This document shows, piece after piece, positions 6,654 through 50,632 of a stretch of 64,000 bases of DNA. The stretch is from Candidatus Gastranaerophilales bacterium (lineage in GTDB: Bacteria; Cyanobacteriota; Vampirovibrionia; Gastranaerophilales; Gastranaerophilaceae): contig CALURL010000007.1 in assembly GCA_944323155.1 (NCBI GenBank), positions 1 through 64,000 of the forward strand. The letters run 5' to 3'. The notes below the pieces were generated by a model that ran no database searches, was not told the origin of the DNA, and was given only the letters and a program-made list of their open reading frames with translations. Within the stretch, counting starts at the first letter, position 1, and each line of letters opens with the position of its first letter. A program made the position numbers and the translations under genes.

Positions 6654-7426
6654 TTAATAATTCATTTCCCAGTTGTCATTAAGAAGTTTTCCAAAACAAC
6701 CATGATAGTTAGCTCCACTATCAGATTGACAATAATTTTTAAATCGTTTTTCTCTCTGCTCTGGTGACATTGGAATAGTTGCTTTTACCTCAGTATCGTC
6801 TTCAGAAACTGCAGCAGATGTAACATCTAATTCATCAAGCTGCCCACCATTATATAAATACATTACAAAAAGATCTCTGCCAACTATATTAGGTCCCTTT
6901 TGTCCATTTGTATCTACCCAAACTTCAAGAACCGCTGTGGTAACAGTTGGATCTGCAGATACAGATCTATAAAAAGTTGCAATAGAAGAACCGTCTGCCA
7001 AAACAAAATGGCGCTTACCATACCAAGTAGTCACTTTTGAACCGGAAAGTTTACGATATTCACCAGTCTCTGCAAAACAAGGTGTTTGATTTTCACCACA
7101 ATCTTGTATAGTTTTGAAATAATTTTTAATAAAATTTGCACCTGCATCTTCGCTAGTTAAACCTGCTTCACGCAAGTTTAAAGCATTTTTATCAGTCATA
7201 TACTGCAATGCAGCCTGCTGAATCTGATTATAAACTTTGTGCAATTGTACTGCATAAGTTTTTCTCTGATGATTTTGCATCAAAGTTGGAACAGTCATGG
7301 CTGAAACCACACCGATAATTCCTAAAGTAACCAGAACTTCCGCTAACGTAAAGCCTCTACGGCGTTTGGAAAAGGAGACTAAGCCTGTGCCCCCCCCCCG
7401 CAAGCAGTTCTAAATAAATTTCTCAT
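6654..7426 (-). CDS. Type IV pilin-like protein P1, frame broken at a G10 tract
   Basis: The gene opens with GGAGATGTT and an ATG at 7426, reads MRNLFRTAC and enters a run of ten G (7399-7390). In that frame it stops at TAG after 15 codons. One frame over, immediately past the run, the sequence reads TGLVSFSKRRRG then FTLAEVLVTLGIIG, the prepilin peptidase site and hydrophobic pilin helix, and continues to a pilin-like C-terminus ending NDNWEMNY. The C-terminal part holds a VDTNGQKGPNIVGRDLF loop shared with the other pilin-like proteins here. One added G, or a -1 slip, gives one intact protein of 256 residues. The open reading frame that seems to start at 7403 uses TTG inside the tract and is not a credible start. 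A consensus promoter lies upstream. Confidence 0.85.
7371..7399 (-). repeat. Pilin leader cassette, copy 1 (G10 plus 19-base flank)
   Basis: On the minus strand G10 (7399-7390) is followed by CACAGGCTTAGTCTCCTTT (7389-7371). It matches the cassettes in P2 and P4 at 18 of 19 flank bases. It lies between the ATG and the prepilin cleavage site. Confidence 0.9.
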
Positions 7427-7459: not shown

Positions 7460-7488
7460 ATTATACAATATATTTATAACATTTTCAA
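7460..7488 (-). promoter_or_regulatory. Promoter of pilin-like gene P1
   Basis: On the minus strand TTGAAA (7488-7483) and TATAAT (7465-7460) are 17 bases apart. Transcription would begin about 27 bases before the ATG at 7426. P2 has the same -35 and -10 words at the same spacing. Confidence 0.7.
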
Positions 7489-37114: not shown

Positions 37115-37920
37115 TTATTCATATTTGCCAGGCGTATAATTTTCAGTTTTGATTAGCTTATCAGTTGCAAGAACATAGTTAAGATTCCCATACAAATTAT
37201 CCGAATAGCTCATATCTCCAGTTGGGCCAAATCCAAAACCAAAATTATCAATGCCTACTTGATTTGGCCCCTTAAGTCCATTTGTATCAAAATATATCCA
37301 ACCACAAGCATTACTTGTATGATACGAGCCTTTATGTCCCGTTGGACTTGATGGATCTGGAATAAAATATCCGTTTTCATCTTTTTCATTTGACCAAAAT
37401 TGTTTTGAACAACTGCCATATCTTAAAGCCTCAGAAGTTATAGTTATGAATGTACCGTCAGCCAATACAGCTCTACATGCATTCATATGACTATTTTGTC
37501 GAGTATTACCGGAGCCATCATTTAACTTTTTGTATTGCTTTACGGTATATTTACCACCACAAGAGTCTATATTTGAAGAATCACAAATTTGAACTATATT
37601 TAAATATTTAGAAAGAGATTTTAGTATTTCGTAATCAGAAGTTCCTGCTGTGAAAAAATAAAAATAATCGCCAATTGTTCCATTATCAGCATTCCAACGG
37701 TTAACAGCATTCAAAGCCGTAGAATATGATTTTTTGGCAGCCGTAACAAATTGTTTTTGTCTATAATCTGCAATTAAATTTGGCAACGTCAATGCCGCAA
37801 CTATTCCAATAATACCTAAAGTTGTTAAAACTTCAGCTAAAGTGAATGCACCAAACTTGCCGCAAAAGGAGACTAGGCCTGTGCCCCCCCCCCGTGAAGC
37901 TCATTAAGTAAATTTTTCAT
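37115..37920 (-). CDS. Type IV pilin-like protein P2, frame broken at a G10 tract
   Basis: The ATG at 37920 follows AGGAGAAGAATT and reads MKNLLNELH before ten G (37893-37884). That frame stops at TAG four codons past the run. One frame over, past the run, the sequence reads TGLVSFCGKFGA then FTLAEVLTTLGIIG and the pilin helix, ending in an exterior domain with YFDTNGLKGPNQVGIDNFG. One extra G or a -1 slip gives a 268-residue prepilin with a 25-residue leader. The residue before the cleavage phenylalanine is Ala rather than the usual Gly. The apparent TTG start at 37792 lies inside the helix and is not credible. A consensus promoter lies upstream. Confidence 0.85.
37865..37893 (-). repeat. 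Pilin leader cassette, copy 2 (G10 plus 19-base flank)
   Basis: On the minus strand G10 (37893-37884) is followed by CACAGGCCTAGTCTCCTTT (37883-37865), identical to the flank in P4. The three bases before the tract are CAC, as in P3 and P4. Confidence 0.9.
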
Positions 37921-37950: not shown

Positions 37951-37979
37951 ATTATAAAAAAAATTTTTATTTTTTTCAA
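37951..37979 (-). promoter_or_regulatory. Promoter of pilin-like gene P2
   Basis: On the minus strand TTGAAA (37979-37974) and TATAAT (37956-37951) are 17 bases apart, the same words and spacing as in the P1 promoter. Transcription would start about 24 bases before the ATG. Confidence 0.7.
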
Positions 37980-37991
37980 GAGAAACATCTT

Positions 37992-39221
37992 TTAAACATC
38001 GTCTGTGATAAAACCTGTTTGAATAATATTTTTCCCAAATTTATTCTCCAGCCTGTCTAAACATTTTGTAAGCTTTGATTTTTTATCATCCAAATCACTG
38101 TTATCAAACAAAGATAGTTGAGCCTCACTGTTAAATTGAAAAGTATCCAAAATTACACCGGTGCTTCTGTAAAGAGTATTTGGGTTATATAATTTATCAA
38201 GAAGCTCAAAAATAATATCGGAAATTTCCAGCTCAAAATCTGTAGATTTATTTAAGATCCGCTTTTCAGAATACACCTTAAAATCTTTTGTCCTGAGAAA
38301 AATGCTTATACCAAAACACTTTGCATCTAAAGAACGCAATTTTACACAGGCTCTATGAACATGGTAGTTCAAAGAATTTTTCAAATATTCCTTATCCGAA
38401 GTAAACTTTGCCAGAGCACAGGTTTTCTGAATTGATTTTGGGAGCTTAACCTCATCAGACACAGGTGAAATCATTTCTCCTAACAATTCATGCTTCATTT
38501 CAAGCCCGCGGATTCCAACCTGTTTATTAAGCCAGATATCACTCTGCTGAACAAGTTCATAAGCTGTCAATATTCCATTTTTTCGAAAAAACATTGACAA
38601 ATTCTTTCCAATTCCCCATATCTCATCAATAGAAGTTTTTTCAAGTACAGGAATAATTTTTCTTGTTCCTATAAGAAAAACTCCTTCATCAAGTTTTTTT
38701 GCTTTATCCGAAGCTAGTTTTGCAAGAGATTTTGATGAACTCAATCCAATAGATACCGGAATATCTACTCTATTTCTAATTTCTGTTCTTAGCATTTGAG
38801 CGATTTTAAGATAATTTTTTTTGTATAAACGCTCCAAACCCGTTAAATCAACAAATGCTTCATCTATTGAATAAATCTCAACAAGAGGGCTAAACTCTTT
38901 TAAGACAGCCATAACTTTTTTAGAAATATCATAGTATAAATCATGTTTTGCATTAATAAATAATGCCTGCTTCATTTTACCTTCTATCTGAAAATATGGC
39001 ATTCCCATACGAATACCAAGTTTTTTAGCTTCTTTAGAACGTGAGATTACACATTGTCCGCGGGCAGACATTACACATACTGCTTTGCCTTTTAATTCCG
39101 GGTTAACAGCCTGTTCACAAGAAACAAAAAAAGAATCACAATCAACTAATGCTATAACATGTTTACGCGCCATAGCAACATTGTCATCTTTATTCAGAAT
39201 TTCGTCCAATTCATTTTCCAT
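37992..39221 (-). CDS. Y-family DNA polymerase, UmuC type
   Basis: This 409-residue translesion polymerase has the palm-domain metal motifs DCDSFF (near residue 28) and YSIDEAFVDL (near 119-128), the helix-hairpin region (IWGIGKNLSMFF) and a little-finger domain. A beta-clamp-binding motif QLSLF lies near the C-terminus, followed by a UmuC-like tail. It copies past damaged bases under stress. No umuD or lexA is next to it. The start could be M1 or the ATG at codon 17 (MARKHVIAL), which lies closer to the conserved domain. It is 12 bases after rqcH in the same direction. Confidence 0.92.
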   Translation of the reverse strand: MENELDEILNKDDNVAMARKHVIALVDCDSFFVSCEQAVNPELKGKAVCVMSARGQCVISRSKEAKKLGIRMGMPYFQIEGKMKQALFINAKHDLYYDISKKVMAVLKEFSPLVEIYSIDEAFVDLTGLERLYKKNYLKIAQMLRTEIRNRVDIPVSIGLSSSKSLAKLASDKAKKLDEGVFLIGTRKIIPVLEKTSIDEIWGIGKNLSMFFRKNGILTAYELVQQSDIWLNKQVGIRGLEMKHELLGEMISPVSDEVKLPKSIQKTCALAKFTSDKEYLKNSLNYHVHRACVKLRSLDAKCFGISIFLRTKDFKVYSEKRILNKSTDFELEISDIIFELLDKLYNPNTLYRSTGVILDTFQFNSEAQLSLFDNSDLDDKKSKLTKCLDRLENKFGKNIIQTGFITDDV

Positions 39222-40724: not shown

Positions 40725-41524
40725 TTATTTAACTTTATCACCTTTATTATATTTTGTATAAATTGGATTCCCGCCCTGCAAAATGTTATAAAGACTATTA
40801 GAACCTATTGGAGCCCAATCACCGTTTTTTGTAATACCTTTTTGGTCAATAAGTATACCAAAAGCATCAGCTCCAAATTTATTAGGTCCAGCTGGCCCGT
40901 TTGTATCAAAATAAAGTATTGCACAATATCTACGAGTTGCCTCATAAGTTATAAAATTACCGTCTTTATCTTGTGCAAGTGTTCCATCAGGGTTATATTT
41001 TGAATATACAACATCCTCTTCACAAGAAGGATACATACGTACTACAATAGTAGAACCATCATTCACAACAAATAAAGGAAAACCGCCAAGAGCTTGATAA
41101 GTTGCCTCTCCATTTTCATTATAAATTGCAGAAGCATAAGCAATTTCTGGATAAAACCTTTTGCATTGCGCACTACTTGAATTCTGACATAATTTCAAAG
41201 TATTAAAATACTTTGAAAAATTTTCCGCAACTTCAAAAGAAGTCATTGAAGGGTTAAATAATCCCGATACATCCCCCGGAGTTCCATTATCAGCCTCATA
41301 TCTCTGAAGTGCTTGACTGATTAATGAATAAGTACGTCGTGCACGGGTTGCAAATTCTTTGTTTTTATAATCAGCTATCAAATTTGGTAATGTTAAAGCT
41401 GCAACAACGCCTATAATTCCTAAAGTAACTAATACCTCAGCCAGAGTAAAGGCCTTATGGCAGTTGGAAAACGAGACTAGGCCTATGCCCCCCCCCCGTG
41501 AACTAACTTGAATAAATTTTTCAT
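40725..41524 (-). CDS. Type IV pilin-like protein P3, frame broken at a G10 tract
   Basis: The ATG at 41524 follows AAAAGGAGATTT and reads MKNLFKLVH, then ten G (41497-41488). This frame meets two TAG stops right after the run (GCA TAG GCC TAG). In the next frame the sequence reads IGLVSFSNCHKA then FTLAEVLVTLGIIG, and the exterior domain carries YFDTNGPAGPNKFGADAFG. One extra G or a -1 slip gives a 266-residue prepilin. Ala, not Gly, precedes the cleavage site. The flank differs from the other copies at two bases. Unlike P1, P2 and P4, I see no strong -35 box upstream. The gene has its own terminator. Confidence 0.84.
41469..41497 (-). repeat. Pilin leader cassette, copy 3 (G10 plus 19-base flank)
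   Basis: On the minus strand G10 (41497-41488) is followed by CATAGGCCTAGTCTCGTTT (41487-41469), which differs from the P2/P4 flank at two bases; one of the changes creates a second stop codon in the ATG frame. Confidence 0.88.
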
Positions 41525-49779: not shown

Positions 49780-50576
49780 TTAGTCTTTATCAAAATAATA
49801 TTTTTGACTGCAATAATCCTGATTACCTTTAACGCACTTGAGATAATCCAGATTTTCTTTTTGAAGAACCCATGCACCGCAGCCACTGCCATTCCACCAG
49901 CCAGTGACACTTGAGGCTCTAGTTGGATCACAAGTTTGACCGCTGCCATGGGTATTCAATCCGCCGCGTGGAACTATTTTATTTGCATCTGCATGAAAAG
50001 TAAACGTGTCAACACCCCAACGATTAGGAGATTTATCACCGTTGATATCTACAGTAATATGAAAACAGTATTTTAAATCGCCACAATTTGGCTTTGGAGT
50101 ACTTGTCTGATGCCCAAAACCAATAACCATACCATCTGACATAACCAGTGAAGTCGAGCCGCCAGAAGATACTCCATCCATACCATCCACAATATTATTT
50201 GTTAAATCACGTCTTTGTACATTAGCAAAACAGCCTTTTTCACCAGTTTTGCATATTTTTACGTTTCTAATATATTTTGAAAAAATCTCTGTTACACCAT
50301 CCCAATCTTCAATATTCCAGGAATTAGGATCACCATAATCATACAGAATGCTTATATAAGCATTTGACATAGTTGAATATGCTTTTTTCAAACGAACAAC
50401 TGTTTCTTTTTCTCGATGATTGGCGATTAAATTCGGTAAAGTAAGTGCTGCAACAAGTCCTATTATGCCCAGAGTGATTAAAACTTCTGCGAGAGTAAAT
50501 CCGTCTAAACTGTTGTTATGAAAGGAGACTAGGCCTGTGCCCCCCCCCCGTGAACGTGTTTTATATCTTTTTTCAT
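49780..50576 (-). CDS. Type IV pilin-like protein P4, frame broken at a G10 tract
   Basis: The ATG at 50576 follows AAAAGGAGAATAGAGT and reads MKKDIKHVH, then ten G (50549-50540). The frame stops at TAG four codons later. The next frame reads TGLVSFHNNSLDG and FTLAEVLITLGIIG, then the pilin helix and a long exterior domain with TVDINGDKSPNRWGVDTF and CGAWVLQKENLDYLKC. One extra G or a -1 slip gives a 265-residue prepilin with the standard Gly before the cleavage site. The apparent start at 50391 is an internal TTG. A consensus promoter lies upstream and no terminator follows before glyS. Confidence 0.85.
50521..50549 (-). repeat. Pilin leader cassette, copy 4 (G10 plus 19-base flank)
   Basis: On the minus strand G10 (50549-50540) is followed by CACAGGCCTAGTCTCCTTT (50539-50521), identical to the P2 flank although the pilin bodies have diverged strongly. 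Confidence 0.9.
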
Positions 50577-50603: not shown

Positions 50604-50632
50604 ATTATAACAAGTTATAAATTTTATTGCAA
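50604..50632 (-). promoter_or_regulatory. Promoter of pilin-like gene P4
   Basis: On the minus strand TTGCAA (50632-50627) and TATAAT (50609-50604) are 17 bases apart, giving a leader of roughly 20-25 bases before the ATG at 50576. Confidence 0.65.

Follow-up and report, generated by a model that had tools for sequence, protein, structure and literature searches.

The closest experimentally tested precedent for the genes described here is Bifidobacterium breve UCC2003, where G-runs are found in two sortase-pilus genes whose reference length is OFF and a change of one base leads to the production of pili (PMC9187656). At bbr_0113, the ON length, G10, was reported in about 30% of cells in mice versus about 3% in culture (PMC9187656). 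As in B. breve, we are dealing with a gut bacterium in which a G-run lies between the gene start and the rest of the pilin, and in which the annotated length is OFF. Yet the B. breve system consists of sortase-dependent LPXTG pili at two loci, whereas here type IV prepilins are concerned, at about 70 loci, with the run lying within the prepilin leader; the phylum is presumably a different one as well.

In Neisseria, a genic poly-G run of G9–20 controls the pilus protein encoded by pilC1/pilC2 (PMC5953494), and genomes carry on average about 15–19 poly-G tracts (PMC5953494), against about 91 here. However, pilC1/pilC2 encode a pilus-associated protein in one or two genes, while in the present case it is the pilin family itself that bears the runs. 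Unlike the Neisseria pilE/pilS system, where promoterless incomplete cassettes serve one expression locus, we find complete genes, several of which are ON. The Opa proteins of Neisseria form, as here, a dispersed family of paralogous surface proteins with a frame switch of its own in the leader of each copy. They are outer-membrane proteins switched by CTTCT repeats in up to about 12 copies (PMC5953494), unlike the poly-G runs, prepilins and about 70 genes of our case. Many poly-G/poly-C runs, as here, are also known from the small AT-rich genome of Campylobacter jejuni, glycosyltransferase genes included (PMC4965091, PMC6321876), with 29 such loci in strain NCTC11168 (PMC4965091); these are mostly surface-modification genes and do not form a pilin repertoire. 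A search of the openly accessible literature retrieved no such system in Gastranaerophilales or Melainabacteria. The first-pass annotation of this DNA had suggested that the switch could be previously undescribed; the kind of switch is known (B. breve sortase pili, Neisseria pilC, Campylobacter), whereas its scale, its lineage and its site in the prepilin leader appear to be new.

Four tract-bearing prepilin genes

The window, by which we mean the whole 64-kb stretch that was analysed, comes from contig 7 of a genome of 1.79 Mb in 34 contigs. The genome would be that of a gut relative of the cyanobacteria, probably Gastranaerophilales-like to judge from its size, its FTLAEV pilins and the shape of the family. 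The window contains four exact G10 runs, all on the minus strand; every other G or C run in it is of 5 or fewer. These four runs account for 12 overlapping G8 matches versus 0.11 expected from shuffles, and the flank CACAGGCCTAGTCTCC is matched at all four with 0–2 mismatches, versus 0.04 matches expected at up to 3 mismatches. The features are as follows.

6654..7426, minus strand: P1 tract-prepilin gene; ATG at 7426-7424, 9 codons, G10, flank, FTLAEV, stop at 6654; OFF at G10, ON at G8 or G11
7390..7399, minus strand: P1 G10 run
7460..7488, minus strand: P1 promoter-like site TTGAAA-17-TATAAT (consensus match only)
37115..37920, minus strand: P2 tract-prepilin gene; ATG at 37920-37918, G10, FTLAEV, body to 37115; OFF at G10
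37884..37893, minus strand: P2 G10 run
37868..37883, minus strand: P2 flank CACAGGCCTAGTCTCC, belonging to a species-specific DNA motif
37951..37979, minus strand: P2 promoter-like site TTGAAA-17-TATAAT (consensus match only)
40725..41524, minus strand: P3 tract-prepilin gene; ATG at 41524-41522, G10, body to 40725; OFF at G10
41488..41497, minus strand: P3 G10 run
49780..50576, minus strand: P4 tract-prepilin gene; ATG at 50576-50574, G10, body to 49780; OFF at G10
50540..50549, minus strand: P4 G10 run
50604..50632, minus strand: P4 promoter-like site TTGCAA-17-TATAAT (consensus match only)

All four genes have a ribosome binding site (RBS), an ATG located 27 nt from the G10 run, and a distance of 37 or 40 nt from the run to FTLAEV. 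The ATG frame is closed by TAG right after the run in P1, P2 and P4, and two codons earlier in P3, while the pilin lies in another frame that is joined to the ATG by G8 or G11, giving a leader of 25 or 26 residues. The first-pass annotation had described the four runs, their common flank, the start signals, the closed ATG frame, the leader length and promoters before P1, P2 and P4, and apart from the position of the P3 stop all of this was found as described; the promoters are sigma-70-like sites scoring 11/12, 11/12 and 10/12, respectively, as consensus matches only, and none was found just upstream of P3. Its suggestion of a “coordinated” switch is not supported, because each gene has a tract to itself, P1, P2 and P4 are in addition preceded by separate promoter-like sites, and no link between the genes was seen. 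For P2, a start further upstream in the pilin frame at G10 was ruled out, since a TGA immediately precedes the run and closes that frame. The ORF adjoining P2 upstream (37992-39221, minus strand) encodes a protein starting with ALVDCDSFFVSCEQ, which makes it a putative Y-family DNA polymerase (UmuC-like).

The genome-wide prepilin set and its frame rule

The four genes initially described are real, but they are only part of a set of about 70 that extends across the genome. Distinct runs of at least 7 G number about 91 (72 of G10, 11 of G11, the rest of 7, 8, 9, 12 or 14), a count that differs by one or two between scripts on account of runs at contig ends, and about 70 of them fall within a prepilin leader. 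G10 typifies the poly-G runs of this genome whether or not they lie in pilin genes, and therefore the identical length of the four window runs cannot be taken as the sign of a special pilin mechanism. Nearly all of the set share one layout, namely RBS and ATG, 9–10 codons, the G-run and the type IV prepilin; with 84 N_methyl matches in the genome, most prepilins, though not all, carry a run. Start sites were picked by RBS score, and in the 62 genes whose coding strand carries the G-run (G-type) the start codon is always ATG, with a spacing to the run of 27 nt in 50 genes and 30 nt in 9. The run measures 10 in 60 of the 70 prepilin genes, 11 in 8, and 9 and 12 in one each.

The ATG joins the pilin only when the run length n satisfies n mod 3 = 2 (8 or 11) in 68 of the 70 genes. 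Eight of the 70 are ON in the assembly, and some 85–90% are out of frame. The spacer between the run and FTLAEV ranges from 28 to 310 nt across the set, partly through inserted repeat-like sequence, and that the rule holds despite such a variable spacer is strong evidence that the ATG-leader and the pilin form one selected reading frame. Genes read in the opposite direction (C-type) have C10 or C11 on the coding strand and leaders such as MLNREDLRVC-PPP-R, and their ON length is also 11. The exceptions L105 and L062 may be real compensating indels; L062 is ON at G10 because two bases are missing before the run. L062 (C4:138506) and L100 (C20:21413) are near-identical FTLSEV genes, both with G10. 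Leaders of L029, L056, L063, L086, L093 and others are lengthened between the run and FTLAEV by repeat-like sequence, for example FFFPLPMGEGARRAGEGYYV or CATHVDTC, reaching about 100 residues with the frame always kept. Rescue by an internal start after the run was considered and rejected, as a start with an RBS-like site is present in only 6 of the 70 genes, all of them TTG.

The pilin bodies are under purifying selection, with dN/dS of 0.11–0.30 between pairs of paralogue bodies, nearly all from OFF genes. Most bodies are stop-free over 207–254 codons, and FTLAEV and E6 are invariant across 36 of them. TIGR02532 was above cut-off for P1, P3 and P4, and N_methyl for P1. Residues 4–55 of the P2 body model (mean pLDDT 93) form the extended N-terminal helix that characterises type IV pilins, and the similarity of the body profile to geopilin, PilA, PilE1 and GspG chains is confined to this helix; the family matches are type IV pilin-like and none is sortase-dependent. 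A fold search with the globular domain of the P2 model gave no PDB match at E <= 0.001 and no significant viral match. Perhaps this modelled domain represents an undescribed pilin head. It contains conserved cysteines and an invariant D-x-x-G-x-x-x-x-N-x-x-G-x-D pattern.

Relatives and the strand of the runs

G-runs of at least 9 were found in 158 of the 191 genomes of the family, their number per genome ranging from 0 to well over 100. Other genera show the same prepilin design with other leaders and other modal lengths, lengths of 8–13 being observed and ON and OFF genes both occurring. In the sister species G001 the leader differs (MLKLYEQLGGGGDYLSL), n is 9–12 and 3 of 26 genes are ON. Modal lengths are 9 in G091 (4/24 ON), 11 in G005 (1/9 ON) and 10 in G008 (7/34 ON), and G145 has lengths 9 and 10 (3/18 ON). 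In G011, from another genus (g10), the modal length is 13 and most genes need 12 (5/22 ON). The missing step is thus opposite, modal G13 in G011 being one base too many and G10 here one too few, a difference in direction between genera that is more readily explained by DNA slippage than by a fixed translational slip. In each of the 7 sampled genomes with at least 9 genes, most genes are OFF at the commonest length, the chance of which is about 0.06 assuming independence at 2/3 each. Pooled without G008, 25 of 182 genes are ON versus one third expected (p = 2e-9); as frames are inherited together, the claim that this proves a family-wide OFF bias is weakened. The longest run seen, G16, lies in the prepilin leader of L239 (G124). 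G100 (genus g57) has about 60 poly-G runs of 8–11 (loci L217-L236), none of which was scored in a prepilin leader.

It had been proposed that absence of the cassette from related pilin genes would reduce it to a local oddity. This does not refute the observation: the exact cassette was indeed not found in 58 relatives, but related species have their own version at the same place. Scanning of GTDB r220 contigs gave 4 exact matches, all in unrelated organisms and probably due to chance, and IMG/VR gave none.

The orientation of the runs deserves attention. The G-run is on the same strand in 65 of 70 neighbouring tract pairs, versus 44 of 62 pairs of adjacent genes within the window. The C-type genes of this genome keep their G-run on the strand of the surrounding runs, and are thus transcribed the opposite way. 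GC skew has the matching sign in the window and the 20-kb stretches that were read, some being near zero. On a 1.03-Mb contig of G008, the runs are on the plus strand in 16 of 16 cases up to 758 kb and on the minus strand in 5 of 5 from 823 kb, and GC skew is mixed though predominantly positive up to about 765 kb, then negative in all stretches read beyond that point; the C-type genes there obey the same strand rule. On G008 contig 11 (loci L344-L393), as in our own genome, the G strand of the runs follows GC skew whichever way the genes are read. In at least two genera, the G-run thus appears to stay on the G-rich, leading-type strand whatever the gene direction, the leading strand being called from GC skew alone. 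G145 and G011 have runs on both strands and no C-type genes scored, so the polarity rule is lineage-specific. Candidate causes are strand-dependent slippage, strand-dependent retention, or spread by fork-oriented copying.

When a weight matrix built from G-type flanks was applied to the C-type flanks, the score was 9.7 on the G strand versus -23.1 (sd 8.6) for random sequence and -21.3 on the coding strand, part of it stemming from the bases that touch the run. Since C-type flanks score high on the G strand only, the conserved flank is a DNA-level motif and not a matter of peptide alone. It is common to both gene orientations within a species and differs by species. At L075 (G000 C6:70207), a GT8 glycosyltransferase gene carries G11-CATAGGCCTG in frame. 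It is translated as GGGGIGL, which lies in a loop of this protein and recurs in the P3 leader (compare 41472-41497 of the window). The stretch comes close to the P3 cassette and, judged by sequence, seems to be that very element, carried by an unrelated gene. We put forward, tentatively and with some doubt, that the poly-G run and its flank could constitute a portable switch element of about 25–30 bp, placed by copying or recombination, in either direction, not only in prepilin genes but also in at least one glycosyltransferase gene, with the G strand leading and with switching, spread or retention depending on the replication fork.

Probable phase variation and its alternatives

We consider it very likely that these genes represent phase variation by poly-G slippage of a giant, mostly OFF prepilin repertoire, in which each gene is a contingency locus. 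Replication slippage would alter the length of the poly-G in the type IV prepilin leader; at n = 8 or 11 the ATG would be read through the leader and the prepilin cleavage site into the pilin body (ON), while at n = 9, 10 or 12 translation would end soon after the run (OFF). About 70 scattered genes switching independently would give each cell a small, changing subset of pilins, and a consensus assembly of many cells would then show most genes OFF and one base from ON, which would fit a bet-hedging repertoire that might serve attachment, or escape from phages or host recognition. The run lengths, read from assemblies at one consensus genome per species, differ between loci and between species; switching within the population, surface display and the selective reason are what we infer. 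The narrow length distribution, with 60 of 70 prepilins at 10, counts against phase variation. Capsule and glycosyltransferase genes, which are typical contingency genes, also carry the run, and one other ORF, L088, is frameshifted at its length of 10 and would need 11, as expected of an OFF contingency gene. Judged by MutS, mismatch repair shows no sign of loss: MutS-type proteins are present (two MutS_V proteins in this genome), so such a loss was rejected as a cause, and this too counts against phase variation.

Three readings had been left open at the outset, and they fared differently: phase variation is supported, and the other two run into evidence from this genome and its relatives. 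A true length of G11 with all genes ON could be suspected, given that long G-runs are error-prone in some sequencing and that most prepilins are exactly one base short. Yet Mur ligase, radical-SAM, nucleotidyltransferase/phosphotransferase and capsule-synthesis genes of the same assembly are continuous exactly at 10 and would be broken by a systematic undercount; G9, G11 and G12 runs are called elsewhere in it, a GT8 glycosyltransferase gene is in frame at 11 and a GT2 gene at 14, and a relative shows the opposite offset, all of which makes a miscount highly improbable. The in-frame G10 inside the Mur ligase gene L080 (G000 C9:39849), used as a length control, is odd in itself, and the gene is expected to be essential. 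Routine expression through a slip of the RNA polymerase or ribosome, whereby G10 genes would always make some full-length prepilin and exact length would hardly matter, gains from ten Gs being a plausible slip site and from nearly all genes of this genome needing the same shift. We regard it as unlikely, seeing that lengths vary (9–12 in the sister species) and that a fixed slip would keep one direction, when the modal length in G011 needs a base removed and our own genus a base added; programmed -1 ribosomal frameshifting meets the same difficulty, its direction not being conserved in homologues (G13 in G011 versus G10).

The frameshift of most copies relative to the start codon might also suggest silent, functionless pilin copies in decay, but nearly all bodies are open over at least 207 codons at the low dN/dS given above and their sole lesion is the length of the G-run, with starts, RBS and frame rule preserved, so that decaying pseudogenes are improbable in the extreme. 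Alternatively, the copies could be silent donors that recombine at the G-run motif and convert a single expressed pilin locus, in the manner of Neisseria pilS/pilE. A flank conserved as DNA in both reading directions and the many paralogues, most of them OFF, would agree with this; however, the copies are whole genes, RBS and ATG included, rather than fragments, at least three window genes have promoter-like sites and so are not promoterless, and about 8 copies are ON rather than one, and we find such a role very improbable.

Under phase variation, the reading that we prefer, several consequences follow. Automatic annotation would break up or shorten nearly all tract-prepilin genes, because about 85–90% are out of frame in the assembly. 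Whether the strand of the G-run relative to the replication fork controls switching or spread is a testable mechanism, because oppositely read genes have a C-run instead, which leaves their Gs on the strand of the others. If switching is real, this would be among the largest known sets of switchable pilus genes, with some 70 members in the 1.8-Mb genome of an apparently uncultured gut lineage, and the surface pili of the family would be a combinatorial, bet-hedging trait.
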